Origin: Treponema sp.
Lineage (GTDB): Bacteria; Spirochaetota; Spirochaetia; Treponematales; Treponemataceae
Assembly: GCA_021442965.1 (NCBI GenBank)
Contig: JABUUX010000133.1
Location: forward strand, 1 to 9,293
Direction: 5' to 3'
Length of the DNA: 9,293 bases
Shown piece after piece: positions 2,588 to 7,667 of the stretch. The notes below the pieces were generated by a model that worked only from the letters and a program-made list of their open reading frames with translations, searched no databases and was not told where the DNA came from. How positions within the stretch are numbered: the first letter of the stretch is position 1; each line of letters opens with the position of its first letter. Made by a program: the position numbers and the translations under genes.

Positions 2588-5092
2588 TCACATTTTAACG
2601 CAGTAAATTTCAACAGTATCACCAAGGTGTTTTTTCTGTGACATTTTTAAAATCCGGTTCCACTCTTCACTTCCAGGGGAAACTCCCAATTCTTTTACCT
2701 TAGTAAACCGTTCCGGATGATGGCCTGTAGAAACTGTTTTTACAACCTTAAAACCAAATCTTTTTAATACGCTTTTTGCCAATGAAGGTTCCCATACAGA
2801 AAAATGATCTGAAGGGCTTATTTTGTAAAATAAATCCTTATCTGTTAAAGCAGAAACACCTTCACCACTTGGGGTTGAAAAAGCAAAAAGTCCGCCTTTT
2901 TTTACAAGTGATGAAACTTTGTCTAATACTGTTTTTAAATCCTGAAAGTGTTCAATAACATACCACATTGTAACAGCGTCAAATTTTTCTATTTCAAATT
3001 CTTTAACAGTGTCTATATCAGGAAATGCCGAAACACAAGCTTTAAATCCAAGTTCTTTTTTTACGCTCTCTACTGCATCCTGACAAATATCAGTTCCAAA
3101 AACTTTCCATCCGTTTTCTGAAGCGGCTTTTAAAAATGGTCCGTAAGCGCATCCAACGTCTAAAACTGCAGAAGATTTTACGGGCTGTAAAATTTTATTC
3201 ATTTCTAAAACTCGTTTTACACACGATTTTTTTATATTTTCAAAATCCTCTTTATATGTCTTACCATACTGTTTTTTATAACTTTCAAAAAAATATTCTT
3301 TTTCATATTTTTTTTCCGAAACACAGGAATAAGAAATATATATAAGACCGCAGGATGGGCAACGGCGATAAGTTCTTGTTTCATTACGGGAAATAATTTT
3401 CCCGCGTTTCTCATTTTCAAGTTTTCCGCATACCGGACATGAATATGACTTTCCTCCAGAAAGATAATTTATAAAGTCATTAAAACTCTTATACTCTTCA
3501 TTACAAGAGGATGGTCTGTTGTTTTTAAAAAATCCTTCGTTATATATCTTTTCACTTTTTACTAAGTTCGAAACAAAATTGTATGAAAGATTTTTTAAAT
3601 TACAATTTGCAAATCCATATTTTTCAGAAAGTTTTTTATGCAGCTTTGATGTTGGAAGAAGAATTACTCCGCATCCACTTGCAATACTTTCAAAAGCGGT
3701 AAGCCCGTAATGAGTAAATACAAGATCATATTTTTTAAGCTGATTTTTCAAATTTGGAATGGATGAAACAAAAGTTATATTTTTTTTATCGATTCCATTT
3801 TTACATACAGCAGTAATTTTTGCAGAAGGAAAGATTTCAGAACATAGTTCTGCACAGGGATTCGTAAGCCCTTTAGGATCTTCCCCTCCAAAACAAACAA
3901 GAATACTTTTAACCTCTGAAATATCTTTTATTTTATCTTTACCAGAATGTGGAGGTAATTCAAGATACCCGATATTTTTCATATTACTCTTGTATGATTT
4001 TTCATACGATGGAATTATTTCAAGAACATAGTCACATAGATTGCGAAATTTTGAACAGTCATCTACAGCTACTAAAGTTGATGCTGAATAATATTCAGCC
4101 TCTTCTTTTGTCATAGAAAATGTATCTACAATGTAAGTACAATTAAAAGATTTTTCTGGAGGAAACTGAATTATCTGAGTCTCTTCCAAGCCTTCTGACA
4201 TAGCAGAAGTTATTATTTCTGCTATGCGGTTTGTAAATGCAATGTCATTATTATCAGAAAGTCTAAGATTAGAAATTAAAACAAAGCTGCCGGTATTTTT
4301 AGCAAGATTCAGACATCTTACAAGATGACCGGTTCCACGTCCTTTTTTAAGAGAAGGTACCAGAATAACAGGTTTTTGAATTTGATTTTTTTCAGCTGTC
4401 TTAATTATAGTTTCCGCACATAAAGGTTCATCTCTTTCTTTTCTTTCTACAGAAGTAATCAATAAAAGAGCTTTCAGATAATCACCGTAAGTATCTATTG
4501 TTGTTCTTAAATGGGGAGCAAAAAACTTTTGCGGAGCTTTTTTAAAACTGCACTTGAAAATATCTTGATGTCTGTATAAGGCAGGTCCTGCATGTTCGTG
4601 GTCGTAGGGATCATCAGTAAGTAACGCTGCTTTTAAAAGACTCTTTCCGTCAAAGACTTCAACCCCACTACCATGCGGTAAACCTGTATATGTAAAATAA
4701 TCACATTGCTCTGGAGTTCCGCGTAAGGCATCAAATTCATCTGCACTTTGAACTGCTGCTTCATAAAATAAAAAAGGATTGTCGGCTGTGGCACGTATTA
4801 CAGTATCACAATCTGTTTTTCTTATTACCATGCAGAAGCGTTCAAGAACATCTTCCAAGGGACCTTTAAAACATTCAAAACCATTTTGAATACACACAGG
4901 TTCGAGTTTTTCAAATGAGGCCTCATCTGTTGCAACATAATAAAAATCAGCCGGCACTTTTTTCATAGCATTAAGGCACCATGAAATTACCGGTTTTCCA
5001 TCCAAAGGATATAAAGCTTTTCCGGGAAGCCTTGTAGAAGAAAGCCGGCACTGTACTATTACTGCACGCTTAATTTTTTTCTGAACACTCAT
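2588..5092 (-). CDS. Trimodular SpsF cytidylyltransferase / PseG-SpsG-like / zinc-ribbon SAM methyltransferase fusion
   Basis: An 834-residue cytoplasmic fusion of three activities for sugar-nucleotide metabolism. Residues 1 to about 240 are an SpsF/CMP-sugar synthetase domain: RLSSTRLPGK at 16-25, ADNP near 103-106, GLPHGSGVEVFDG near 137-149, and a TTIDTYGD segment near 197-204. Residues about 242-520 resemble PseG/SpsG, with GRGTGHLVRC at 251-260 carrying the conserved His, then a GT28-like half with FGGEDPKG and HYGLTAFESIASGCG. After a linker comes a zinc ribbon (Cys552, 555, 578, 581). A class I methyltransferase follows: LDVGCAYG at 644-651, acidic D668, and MWYVIEHF at 709-716. In pseudaminic acid pathways PseG removes UDP and PseF adds CMP, so a CMP-activated, methylated sugar is a reasonable inference. 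The ATG at 5092 follows GGGGTGGGG. It is third in the leftward operon, 19 bases after the glycosyltransferase stop. Confidence 0.88.
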   Translation of the reverse strand: MSVQKKIKRAVIVQCRLSSTRLPGKALYPLDGKPVISWCLNAMKKVPADFYYVATDEASFEKLEPVCIQNGFECFKGPLEDVLERFCMVIRKTDCDTVIRATADNPFLFYEAAVQSADEFDALRGTPEQCDYFTYTGLPHGSGVEVFDGKSLLKAALLTDDPYDHEHAGPALYRHQDIFKCSFKKAPQKFFAPHLRTTIDTYGDYLKALLLITSVERKERDEPLCAETIIKTAEKNQIQKPVILVPSLKKGRGTGHLVRCLNLAKNTGSFVLISNLRLSDNNDIAFTNRIAEIITSAMSEGLEETQIIQFPPEKSFNCTYIVDTFSMTKEEAEYYSASTLVAVDDCSKFRNLCDYVLEIIPSYEKSYKSNMKNIGYLELPPHSGKDKIKDISEVKSILVCFGGEDPKGLTNPCAELCSEIFPSAKITAVCKNGIDKKNITFVSSIPNLKNQLKKYDLVFTHYGLTAFESIASGCGVILLPTSKLHKKLSEKYGFANCNLKNLSYNFVSNLVKSEKIYNEGFFKNNRPSSCNEEYKSFNDFINYLSGGKSYSCPVCGKLENEKRGKIISRNETRTYRRCPSCGLIYISYSCVSEKKYEKEYFFESYKKQYGKTYKEDFENIKKSCVKRVLEMNKILQPVKSSAVLDVGCAYGPFLKAASENGWKVFGTDICQDAVESVKKELGFKACVSAFPDIDTVKEFEIEKFDAVTMWYVIEHFQDLKTVLDKVSSLVKKGGLFAFSTPSGEGVSALTDKDLFYKISPSDHFSVWEPSLAKSVLKRFGFKVVKTVSTGHHPERFTKVKELGVSPGSEEWNRILKMSQKKHLGDTVEIYCVKM
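4199..4226. repeat. Perfect 10-bp inverted repeat inside the SpsG-like coding region
   Basis: The arms CATAGCAGAA (4199-4208) and TTCTGCTATG (4217-4226) are perfectly complementary around an eight-base AT-rich loop. They lie within codons for RIAEIITSAM of the fusion protein. The minus-strand mRNA could form a stable hairpin here, but no U-run follows, so it is not an intrinsic terminator. It may be chance. Confidence 0.5.
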
Positions 5093-5093
5093 A

Positions 5094-5102
5094 CCCCACC
5101 CC
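5094..5102 (-). promoter_or_regulatory. G-rich ribosome binding site deciding the fusion-protein start
   Basis: On the minus strand GGGGTGGGG precedes the ATG at 5092; the upstream GGGG is six bases from the ATG. This supports the ATG over the in-frame TTG at 5128, which lies inside the preceding gene. The sequence is only a partial anti-Shine-Dalgarno match. Confidence 0.5.
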
Positions 5103-5111
5103 AAACTTTTT

Positions 5112-6065
5112 CTATTCCCACTTTTCAATAAGTTCTGAAAGTTCCATTTTAAATTTAAACTTATTTACAAACACCCAGTCCATTGCATCAAAAAACTGAC
5201 GTCTTGCTTCAAGTATTCCACAACCGGAATGATTAAAAAATTTCCAAAAATGCATTTTTCTTATGTATGCATGATCATCTTTAAATTTTGGAAGTTCATT
5301 TTTAAGATAAAATCTTAAAGAATCAAGACATGGAGTTTTATCTTCAACAGGAGCTTCTTCTACTGAATATGAAATTTGAAGTGCAGTTGTGATTTTAATT
5401 TTTTCACCCCAAAGCCATGCTCTGATTCCAAAGTCTAAGAGCTGCCAATATGGACTTGTTATTGTATAGTCAAAACCACCAAGTTCTATAAATTTTTCCC
5501 GATGATATAGTCCTACATAATCAAAAGGATACACTGTACTAATCTGATCCTGAACAAAAGTAGAAGACTCCAGAACAAACCTGGATTTTTCTACAAAAGG
5601 TCTTTTTTGAATAGGAAGTGAATTCTTTTTAATGTCTACAAGCCTTGGTGCAGTGCAAAGGATTTCTTCTGATGTCAGATTTTCTGCAAGATTTGGAAGA
5701 ATAATACCTGATGGAATATAAAGATCATCTTTTAAAACCAAAGCATAAGTACTGCGAATTTCTGCCATGGCAACATTTATATTTTCTCCGTCAGAAACGG
5801 TCTCATGTGGAATAATAAATTTTATACTTGGATAATGACGTGAAATTTCTTCGATATTATAATTTCCACGGTCAGGCTCAATGGAAATTATTGAATCAAA
5901 ATTACATTTTATAAGTTCATCAAAAATTTTTGTTTTAAACTGACTTCCTGTTGTATTTAGAAGAATTACAGAAATATCAAGTTTTGATTCTGAAGTATTT
6001 TCACTTCCACCAAGAATTGTTCTTGTTACCTGATGTTCATTAAAAGTTAAAGGTATAGTATTCAT
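5112..6065 (-). CDS. GT2-like (GT-A fold) glycosyltransferase
   Basis: A 317-residue protein without signal peptide or obvious membrane segment. After about 30 variable residues it reads LDISVILLN (first beta strand of the GT-A fold) and SIISIEP. Then comes HETVSDGENINVAMAEI and ALVLKDDLYIP, where KDD at 112-114 sits at the DxD-like metal/nucleotide position. Later, GGFDYTITSPYW followed by LLDFGIRAWLWGEKI (about 196-223) corresponds to the GT2 'GGFDE...D-x-G-x-R...G' acceptor/catalytic region, though the canonical ED is replaced by LD. It probably transfers the sugar activated by the downstream fusion protein; donor and acceptor are unknown. The ATG at 6065 is chosen because GGGA lies six bases upstream; a GTG at 6086 is the longer alternative. 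It overlaps the end of the upstream gene by 26 bases. Confidence 0.75.
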   Translation of the reverse strand: MNTIPLTFNEHQVTRTILGGSENTSESKLDISVILLNTTGSQFKTKIFDELIKCNFDSIISIEPDRGNYNIEEISRHYPSIKFIIPHETVSDGENINVAMAEIRSTYALVLKDDLYIPSGIILPNLAENLTSEEILCTAPRLVDIKKNSLPIQKRPFVEKSRFVLESSTFVQDQISTVYPFDYVGLYHREKFIELGGFDYTITSPYWQLLDFGIRAWLWGEKIKITTALQISYSVEEAPVEDKTPCLDSLRFYLKNELPKFKDDHAYIRKMHFWKFFNHSGCGILEARRQFFDAMDWVFVNKFKFKMELSELIEKWE

Positions 6066-7623
6066 CACATTTCCCACATTTATCACAATAAGTCTTATTT
6101 ATATGATTCATAATTTCTGTATTATTTTGATTCCATATCTTTTCTAAGGTTTCAGTAAATACATTGCCAACAACTTTGTTAAAGCAAGAATGACAGAAAG
6201 TAACATCACCGTTTACTAAAATATTCATATCTCTACGAAGATGCCAGCATACGTTTCTTTCTACAGGAGAAAGATCAGCAGGCTTTCTGTCTGGAATAAG
6301 GCCGCAGAAGGAATTGTATTTTTGAATAATAAAATTACCGTTTGAACTGTTAGATTTTTCATTCCAGTATCTGAAAAAACTTTCCAGTTCCTCTTCATTT
6401 TCATTCATTCTTATAAACTGTGGATAAACAGATGAAGGAAAACACGTGGCGGCATTTTTTACACCTTGAACAGCCTTTTCAAAATCTGCTTCAGTTTTTC
6501 CGCGGATTTTAGCATACGTTTCAGAGGTAAAAGAATCTAAGTTTATGGAAATCATTATTTTTTCATAACCGTTTGTACGAGACTCTGCCTTTAAAGCCAC
6601 GTTTCTTAAAACATCAGCTGATTCTTCTGAAATATAATCGGTTTCAATAAAAACAGAAAGCCCCGGATAAGAAAGAATTTTTTCTACAATTTTTGAAAGG
6701 TCTTTATGAAATAAAGGATCTCCAAAATAAGAAAGACAAAGGACAGCATTTTCAGAAAATTCTGCTATTTGTTCAATAAGATTAAAAATCTTTTCTGTCT
6801 GCATAAATTCACCGTTTTTTGAAACAGGTGCAGAATGGGGAATATAAATAGGATTGGAATCAGAAACAGAACTTATCTGAATATTATAAAAACCAGGAAC
6901 TGTTTTTAATATATCAACATTGTTTGAAGCAAGAATAGAAACATCTTCTGCATCCAGTTCTTCAAGATTTTTATTTTTTCCGTCTTTTTCAAGAGCATTG
7001 TATAAAGCAATGCAAGCCATAAAATTTTCTTTTTTTCCGCAATCAAAACTGTATCGCAAAAGACGGTAATCATCTTCAGAAAGAACTGTTTCTATTTCAA
7101 AAGAGTTTATATCAGTGCTTAATAAATCAAAAAATGAATTTCTCGTTACTTCTTTTTCTCCGGCATCTTTTTGAATATCTTTTGAAAGTGAAGCAAGAAT
7201 GTCTGCTGTTCCACCATCTACCACTTCACAAGAAAAACCATAAGGGAAGCCTTCGGAATATGTATACTCTGCAACAAACTCTTCATGAGTTTCAAGAATT
7301 TCTTTGGTAAGCTTTCTATTCAAAAACGGACAGTCAGCAAATGCATAAACAGCTGCCTCTGCATTCTCGGCTTTAATGCAAAGTGAAACTTCTTCCATAA
7401 GCATTCGAACATTCCATTCTGATTTATAAACAAAAGAAACTTTTTCTGTAGTGTTTTCTTCAAGAAGTTTCCGAGCCTTCTCATACGCAAAAATATAAAC
7501 GGCACAATCCGTAGTTTTCTTTGCCCAAGCAAGAGCCAGGTCATAAGCCGATTTTCCGTTAAAAACCGGTTCAAACATATATTTTGTAGATTTGTCAGCA
7601 AATAAAATTACAATATTCTTCAT
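6040..7623 (-). CDS. Spiro-SPASM-type protein: degenerate SpsF-like domain plus cysteine-less radical SAM fold and SPASM domain
   Basis: A 527-residue cytoplasmic protein, first in the leftward glycan operon. Residues 1 to about 190 resemble the SpsF domain encoded two genes downstream (ADCPFLNRKL against ADNPFLFYEA; GFPYGFSCEVVDG against GLPHGSGVEVFDG). The R-x-x-S-x-R-x-P-x-K signature is absent, replaced by ADKSTKYMFEP. Residues about 245-440 follow a radical SAM barrel: YNIQISSV, then SYFGDPLFHKDL at the 'GE-P' position, then ISINLDSFTSETYAKIRG. The CX3CX2C residues are Ser254, Pro258 and Ile261. The C-terminal SPASM region keeps Cys459, 477, 480, 513, 516 and 519. I recall a spirochaete-only family called spiro-SPASM (TIGR04321) with these traits, but no search was possible. 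It probably acts as a scaffold or cluster-binding partner. The ATG at 7623 gives MKNIVILF, aligning with the SpsF first strand; an ATG at 7662 would add 13 residues. Neither has a good ribosome binding site. Confidence 0.85.
   Translation of the reverse strand: MKNIVILFADKSTKYMFEPVFNGKSAYDLALAWAKKTTDCAVYIFAYEKARKLLEENTTEKVSFVYKSEWNVRMLMEEVSLCIKAENAEAAVYAFADCPFLNRKLTKEILETHEEFVAEYTYSEGFPYGFSCEVVDGGTADILASLSKDIQKDAGEKEVTRNSFFDLLSTDINSFEIETVLSEDDYRLLRYSFDCGKKENFMACIALYNALEKDGKNKNLEELDAEDVSILASNNVDILKTVPGFYNIQISSVSDSNPIYIPHSAPVSKNGEFMQTEKIFNLIEQIAEFSENAVLCLSYFGDPLFHKDLSKIVEKILSYPGLSVFIETDYISEESADVLRNVALKAESRTNGYEKIMISINLDSFTSETYAKIRGKTEADFEKAVQGVKNAATCFPSSVYPQFIRMNENEEELESFFRYWNEKSNSSNGNFIIQKYNSFCGLIPDRKPADLSPVERNVCWHLRRDMNILVNGDVTFCHSCFNKVVGNVFTETLEKIWNQNNTEIMNHINKTYCDKCGKCDEYYTFNF
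6072..6075 (-). promoter_or_regulatory. Ribosome binding site of the glycosyltransferase, within the upstream gene
   Basis: GGGA on the minus strand lies six bases before the ATG at 6065 and decides the glycosyltransferase start. It is embedded in the codons for the last CX2CX2C cysteines of the spiro-SPASM-like protein, suggesting translational coupling. Confidence 0.5.
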
Positions 7624-7638
7624 CAATTCTTTATCGGA

Positions 7639-7667
7639 ATAAAAATTGAAGGGTTTAGTCATATCAA
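7639..7667 (-). promoter_or_regulatory. Weak candidate promoter of the glycan operon
   Basis: On the minus strand TTGATA (7662-7667, 5/6 to the -35 consensus) is followed by a 17-base spacer and TTTTAT (7639-7644, 4/6 to the -10 consensus). Initiation would fall near 7632, about nine bases before the ATG at 7623. It is incompatible with the longer start at 7662. AT-rich sequence makes chance matches common, so a promoter further upstream is equally possible. Confidence 0.22.

Follow-up and report, generated by a model that had tools for sequence, protein, structure and literature searches.

The spiro-SPASM proteins (NCBIfam TIGR04321) form a family that has been named without a known function, and a literature search for 'Spiro-SPASM' and 'TIGR04321' found no paper, with no title about this protein among the matches listed. 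The closest described systems are BtrN (4m7t), a radical SAM/Twitch dehydrogenase; SuiB (5v1s), a SPASM peptide maturase that acts on a peptide and carries its clusters; the cytidylyltransferases (6oew, IspD and TarI); and the polypeptide GalNAc-transferases. To our knowledge, few pseudoenzymes of the radical-SAM superfamily have been described.

The window, a 9,293-nucleotide stretch of Treponema sp. DNA, carries a spiro-SPASM gene (SS) that overlaps a gene for a putative glycosyltransferase (GTx), followed by a multidomain gene (NPM). SS lacks the SAM-cluster cysteines of BtrN, has an extra N-terminal domain and differs at a pocket Ser. No activity like that of SuiB is known for SS, and the N-terminal nucleotide-binding signature of the cytidylyltransferases is not seen in its N-domain. 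Across relatives, TIGR04321 proved to be mixed: some members bear CX3CX2C and others have repeatedly become cluster-less, and the family shows an N-domain of the cytidylyltransferase type and an operon that recurs. The features of the window are as follows.

6040..7623, minus strand: SS, the spiro-SPASM gene, 527 aa, ATG at 7623, stop codon at 6040-6042
6976..7623, minus strand: SS residues 1-216, cytidylyltransferase/MobA-like fold
6304..6915, minus strand: SS residues 237-440, radical-SAM fold
6841..6864, minus strand: SS residues 254-261, SDSNPIYI replacing CxxxCxxC
6862-6864, 6850-6852 and 6841-6843, minus strand: codons at the cluster positions, S254 (TCT), P258 (CCT) and I261 (ATT)
6499..6543, minus strand: SS residues 361-375, NLDSFTSETYAKIRG, probably the strand and loop of the SAM pocket
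6043..6303, minus strand: SS residues 441-527, SPASM/Twitch domain, ending in CDEYYTFNF
6247-6249, 6193-6195, 6076-6078 and 6067-6069, minus strand: SPASM quartet C459, C477, C516 and C519
5112..6065, minus strand: GTx, 317 aa, GT-A-type fold, ATG at 6065 (alternative GTG at 6086), overlapping the end of SS
2588..5128, minus strand: NPM, a cytidylyltransferase, a PseG-like part and a methyltransferase

SS matches TIGR04321 at 536.4 bits (curated cut-off 250) over positions 2-510 of 510, which bears out the family assignment made in an earlier, sequence-only reading of this DNA. An alternative in-frame ATG lies at 7662, and the family start MKxIVIL fits 7623. The folds of SS and GTx were computed as models, in which SS has the partial TIM barrel of the radical-SAM fold. 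In Pfam, SS belongs to the SPASM family (PF13186, 38.8 bits, gathering score 21.5) with its Cys quartet, and the radical SAM family was not matched. In the N-domain, D97xPF, DIN and R190 are conserved in members with and without the cluster cysteines. The usual N-terminal nucleotide-binding signature, which we take to be the cytidylyltransferase motif whose Arg/Lys binds CTP, was found in 0 of 26 aligned rows viewed by eye (L115 does not include that part), and by its absence the N-domain does not class as an active cytidylyltransferase.

Where an active radical-SAM enzyme carries the CX3CX2C that ligates its [4Fe-4S] cluster, SS has Ser, Pro and Ile (window positions 6841-6864 reversed, TCTGATTCCAATCCTATTTATATT, encode SDSNPIYI). 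The placing of SDSNPIYIP at CxxxCxxCP in the sequence-only reading was confirmed by ungapped alignments: a single-sequence search paired the stretch with C-N-R-T-C-W-Y-C-P of BtrN at E 0.56, which alone is not significant, and a 67-row family profile returned the same alignment at E 2.5e-6. Furthermore, these three columns hold all three cysteines (hereafter CCC) in 70 rows of a 240-sequence family alignment (the window protein, 120 database proteins and 119 distinct loci). The count of five base changes to three Cys codons also stands, as the minimum is 1 + 2 + 2. The 'GDP loop' named as part of the conserved fold is present, but it corresponds to the family W-G-E-P loop, which reads F-G-D-P here.

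A displaced CX3CX2C was rejected: the window protein contains no other, and five of the 170 non-CCC rows carry one, each only at the SPASM end. A sequencing or assembly error was also rejected, because all ten rows of the window clade share the loss and the contigs of other losses exceed 2 Mb; the change is thus neither strain-specific nor a single sequencing error, as had been maintained. The loss of the cluster site is virtually certain to be real, and the window protein very probably performs no SAM chemistry, in agreement with the original claim that the SAM-cleaving cluster had lost its site.

All three cluster cysteines are present in 70 of the 240 rows, none in 140 and one or two in 30; the corresponding counts among the 120 genome-derived rows are 43, 58 and 19. 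The database rows are the best 120 of 658 matches, so that close relatives weigh more, and loci L001-L106 are biased to high scorers. L111 (internal stop), L135 (split) and L136 (618 aa, its match falling into two stretches) were removed before counting, as were 14 further loci, each identical to a retained one. The loss had been put down as a trait of the family, yet 43 of the 120 genome-derived members keep CX3CX2C, and the trait is recurrent rather than uniform. The 77 genome-derived non-CCC rows display 51 different triplets, most of whose residues are non-ligands (V, S, L, A, P and I among them), and the middle Cys is the sole survivor in 17 of the 30 partial rows. Since CCC occurs in 12 of 35 rows of the deepest group and in related enzyme families, we infer that it is the ancestral state.

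On the tree of the protein itself (FastTree, 240 rows, motif columns removed), 17 changes were counted, 9 of them forced by well-supported branches. A tree of three neighbouring genes from 66 loci was used as well, because decay of SS cannot bias it, and this gave 6 changes with FastTree and 7 with IQ-TREE, 5 being forced in each. Holding the 45 non-CCC loci together on the neighbour-gene tree (45 rows against 21) lowered the log-likelihood by 1175 (p-AU 4e-8), and a single change was rejected. A second test (7 rows against 35, p 7e-56) is not relied on, because its rows were chosen after the tree had been viewed. Under irreversible loss with midpoint roots, at least 11 losses are needed on the own tree and at least 7 on the neighbour tree when forks below 95 are collapsed, rising to 35 and 11 when each subclade is counted apart; the counts vary with tree and rule. 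The cluster site has almost certainly been lost repeatedly.

Confusion of paralogues is unlikely, because gene order is retained and none of 30 genomes holds two separate over-cut-off TIGR04321 members; the match in G010 is two stretches of one frame, and the two part-matches of G028 sit on separate contigs and each score below the cut-off. The same survey bears on the proposal that SS is a pseudoenzyme partner, with another radical-SAM protein of the same cell supplying the SAM cluster in trans. Other ORFs do weakly match the radical-SAM part of the family in many of the 30 genomes, but given the lack of a second over-cut-off member and of any radical-SAM gene among the annotated recurrent neighbours, supply in trans is highly improbable.

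Further changes accompany the loss of the cysteines within the radical-SAM domain. By similarity-weighted frequency, Ser361 falls from 73% with the cysteines to 13% without, Gly375 from 80% to 31% and Trp300, a neighbour of the GGE-like loop, from 68% to 24%. Residue 361 is presumably the strand residue that forms part of the SAM pocket in MoaA-like enzymes, and residues 361-375 probably lie in that pocket; SS has Asn at 361 where the family has Ser, and retains R374 and G375. Among independent pairs on supported branches, the Ser361 change was concordant in a mean of 6.2 of 9 pairs, with 0 against (median p 0.03). This test covered 148 columns, uncorrected and with the 30 partial rows excluded, and only position 361 reached p 0.05. 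At Trp300, Gly375, Pro264 and Arg374 the trend is similar but falls short of 0.05, and the residues gained after the loss (Y260 and others) likewise miss that level.

Release of the SAM-pocket positions is compatible with a relaxed remnant, in which many lineages no longer need the radical step and the domain is in decay. Mean distances in the radical-SAM domain, across four bins of increasing outer distance, were 0.207, 0.370, 0.484 and 0.610 with the cysteines and 0.249, 0.388, 0.478 and 0.576 without them, so that the two nearer bins fit decay whereas the two farther bins run against it. Moreover, E327 stands at 100% (rounded, weighted) in the CCC, partial and Cys-free classes, DEYYTFNF is retained even in a clade free of Fe-S sites, and the gene keeps its place across whole clades, which makes general decay very unlikely. 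Outside the SAM pocket there is no consistent speed-up or loss of constraint, and, taken with the loss of Ser361 alongside the cysteines, it therefore seems that the SAM site was released while the fold was kept.

The auxiliary-cluster quartet C459/C477/C516/C519 (CX12GX4C...CX2C) is complete in 70 of 70 CCC, 139 of 140 Cys-free and 27 of 30 partial rows. Six conserved SPASM cysteines had been counted in the sequence-only reading, and only these four hold, C480 being Cys in 4, C513 in 97 and C440 in 75 of the 240 rows. Four conserved cysteines fall short of the two-auxiliary-cluster pattern, which we take to comprise seven (CX9-15GX4C-CX2CX5CX3C-C). The window protein nevertheless retains a one-cluster quartet, consistent with the auxiliary Fe-S cluster suggested for it.

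Such retention would suit a protein that depends on the SPASM cluster alone and serves to carry electrons or sense redox state, a role of the kind proposed at the outset. The rows without the full quartet are L114, where the contig ends, and one clade formed by L003 (gene at 8001-9590 of that locus), L082 and L086. In this clade all four cysteines have become D, Y, S and Y, with unchanged neighbours (WHLRRDM, DEYYTFNF); L003 has no SAM-cluster Cys, and L082 and L086 have the middle one (SCS). The contigs that carry L082 and L086 measure 2.66 and 2.63 Mb, and both loci have the operon through FlaA. Maintenance of an Fe-S-free member together with its operon speaks against redox chemistry as the function that the family has in common, and a shared redox role, thus weakened, is distinctly unlikely.

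Gene order was compared at 77 loci, one of them counted twice (L009 and L094). On the same strand after SS lie GTx (67 loci), NPM (68), an ATP-grasp protein (57), an N-acetylmuramoyl-alanine amidase (55) and a GerMN protein (51); FlaA lies within six genes of SS on the same strand at 41 loci, and xseA is divergent and upstream at 42. Once L009 and L094 are counted as one, all 21 CCC loci and 45 of the 55 non-CCC loci hold both GTx and NPM, and FlaA lies within six genes at 9 of 21 and 31 of 55, respectively; gene order is much alike with or without CCC. The ten loci without both genes are eight of the QNL lineage, L014 at a contig end and L075, which has no GTx. Among lower-scoring loci, 14 of 19 have an NPM-type gene adjoining or near SS, and the Cys-free L141, L150 and L153 retain the amidase, GerMN and FlaA genes. 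In the window, SS, GTx and NPM follow one another with overlapping ends, after which the order breaks, and FlaA is not adjacent. Neither this operon nor the cytidylyltransferase-type domain at residues 1-216 figured in the sequence-only reading, which was incomplete to that extent. The QNL lineage (L071, L079, L084, L085, L087, L088, L103 and L104; spiro-SPASM proteins of 476-479 aa) has another gene context, with a release-factor-like gene upstream (by eye) and no GTx or NPM nearby.

The GTx model is closest to the polypeptide GalNAc-transferases at 8-12% identity and has their GT-A fold. It differs from them in having no lectin domain and no DxH metal motif, reading D113-x-L115 (D113 in 50 of 50 rows, Leu115 in 46 of 50). 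GTx has no Pfam match of its own, and its profile returned two matches against PDB sequences, at E 0.07, to an unrelated oxidoreductase. Because a clear metal-binding DxD/DxH motif is missing from its sequence, GTx may be inactive or unusual. NPM overlaps the end of GTx if TTG 5128 is its start; its cytidylyltransferase part (PF02348) has an intact signature, RLSSTRLPGK, and its PseG-like part scores 30.5 bits, below the cut-off. A CxxC pair was noted by eye in the NPM ORF, and about ten relatives have NPM in separate parts, as 78 pieces were counted at 68 loci.

TIGR04321 exceeds its cut-off in 290 of 392 phylum genomes and in 0 of 14 control genomes, 10 of which have weaker matches. FliM was tested in 144 of the 392 genomes: 73 without any family match, 16 of 29 with sub-cut-off matches and 55 of 290 over the cut-off. 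It reached at least 200 bits in 54 of 55 family genomes (the other, G366, has 33.8 bits), 38 of 73 match-free genomes and 8 of 16 sub-cut-off genomes. Of the 38, 36 appear to be Borrelia-like (0.9-1.9 Mb, FliM 302-303 bits). Fisher p is 1.4e-10, or 3e-19 without these 36, values that are descriptive, as related genomes are non-independent and were sampled by family status. The family occurs in flagellated spirochaetes and is not required for flagella as such, because strong FliM also occurs in genomes that lack the family, namely the 36 Borrelia-like ones and 10 others.

Flagellin glycosylation in T. pallidum and relatives was reportedly described by Wyss in 1998, and we know of no established genes that make or attach a spirochaete flagellin glycan. 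In Leptospira FlaB1, density at Ser/Thr, likely a glycan, is proposed to mediate sheath contact (PMC13144727). SpsG is required for legionaminic acid and SpsF for its transfer (PMC7439481), and the two offer a possible parallel to NPM. A legionaminic or nonulosonic acid pathway would combine SpsF-like and SpsG/PseG-like domains with a synthase, and NPM shows the first as PF02348 and the second below its cut-off. A flagellar-glycan context for the locus is reasonably likely, the flagellar link being one of neighbourhood and co-occurrence only. The amidase and GerMN protein in the operon of relatives would also fit a locus that makes a cell-envelope polysaccharide or peptidoglycan-linked sugar, with the flagellar gene a mere neighbour. 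However, the family occurs in only 1 (G366) of 44 sampled genomes without strong FliM, though all have envelopes, and the GTx model is nearest to protein O-glycosyltransferases; an envelope sugar is unlikely.

Since the site was lost many times while the gene was kept beside a possible protein-glycosylating enzyme and, in relatives, flagellar genes, SS is probably a non-catalytic helper for which enzyme chemistry is an optional extra. More specifically, and tentatively, SS may be the non-catalytic substrate-binding or adaptor (scaffold) subunit of a spirochaete flagellin O-glycosylation locus. The site loss, its recurrence, the accompanying loss of a SAM-pocket residue, the lack of consistent relaxation elsewhere, gene order, the link to flagellated genomes and the modelled folds of SS and GTx come from computation, to which this reading adds by inference that the process is glycosylation, that it acts on flagellin and that a binding or adaptor role was retained. 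The SS N-domain, a cytidylyltransferase relative seemingly unable to activate a sugar, may still hold one, and the radical-SAM/SPASM half would hold either an acceptor, be it a glycan or a segment of flagellin, or GTx, whose gene adjoins and overlaps that of SS. NPM would supply a methyltransferase and a cytidylyltransferase with intact signature, and GTx would put the sugar on Ser/Thr of flagellin. The ancestral subunit could also have performed a radical-SAM tailoring step, which would have been dropped many times, the window organism included, with the binding role kept and the SPASM cluster mostly a structural staple.

Counting against the adaptor reading are the lack of a clear DxD/DxH motif in GTx, the genomes with strong FliM but no family member, the eight QNL loci that keep SS away from GTx and NPM, the flagellar link by neighbourhood and co-occurrence only, with FlaA not adjacent in the window, and the somewhat greater divergence of the radical-SAM domain in closer pairs without the cysteines (0.249 vs 0.207). 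A bolder and rather doubtful version is that endoflagellar flagellins are glycosylated by a bacterial GalNAc-transferase-like enzyme with a dead radical-SAM/cytidylyltransferase adaptor, in which radical chemistry would be a dispensable tailoring step with at least 7-11 losses and the adaptor of one lineage would be Fe-S-free. The family presents one orthologous, operon-bound protein in which the change is seen repeatedly, with half-way stages (30 of 240 rows) and an end point without an Fe-S site. It also provides natural pairs in which to study the role left to a radical-SAM fold once its chemistry is gone, and a concrete candidate gene set for the synthesis and attachment of the glycan on spirochaete flagellin.

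Elsewhere in the window, positions 167-1462 encode a HATPase_c_2 domain joined to a cyclic-nucleotide-binding domain, possibly a stress or sigma-factor switch.
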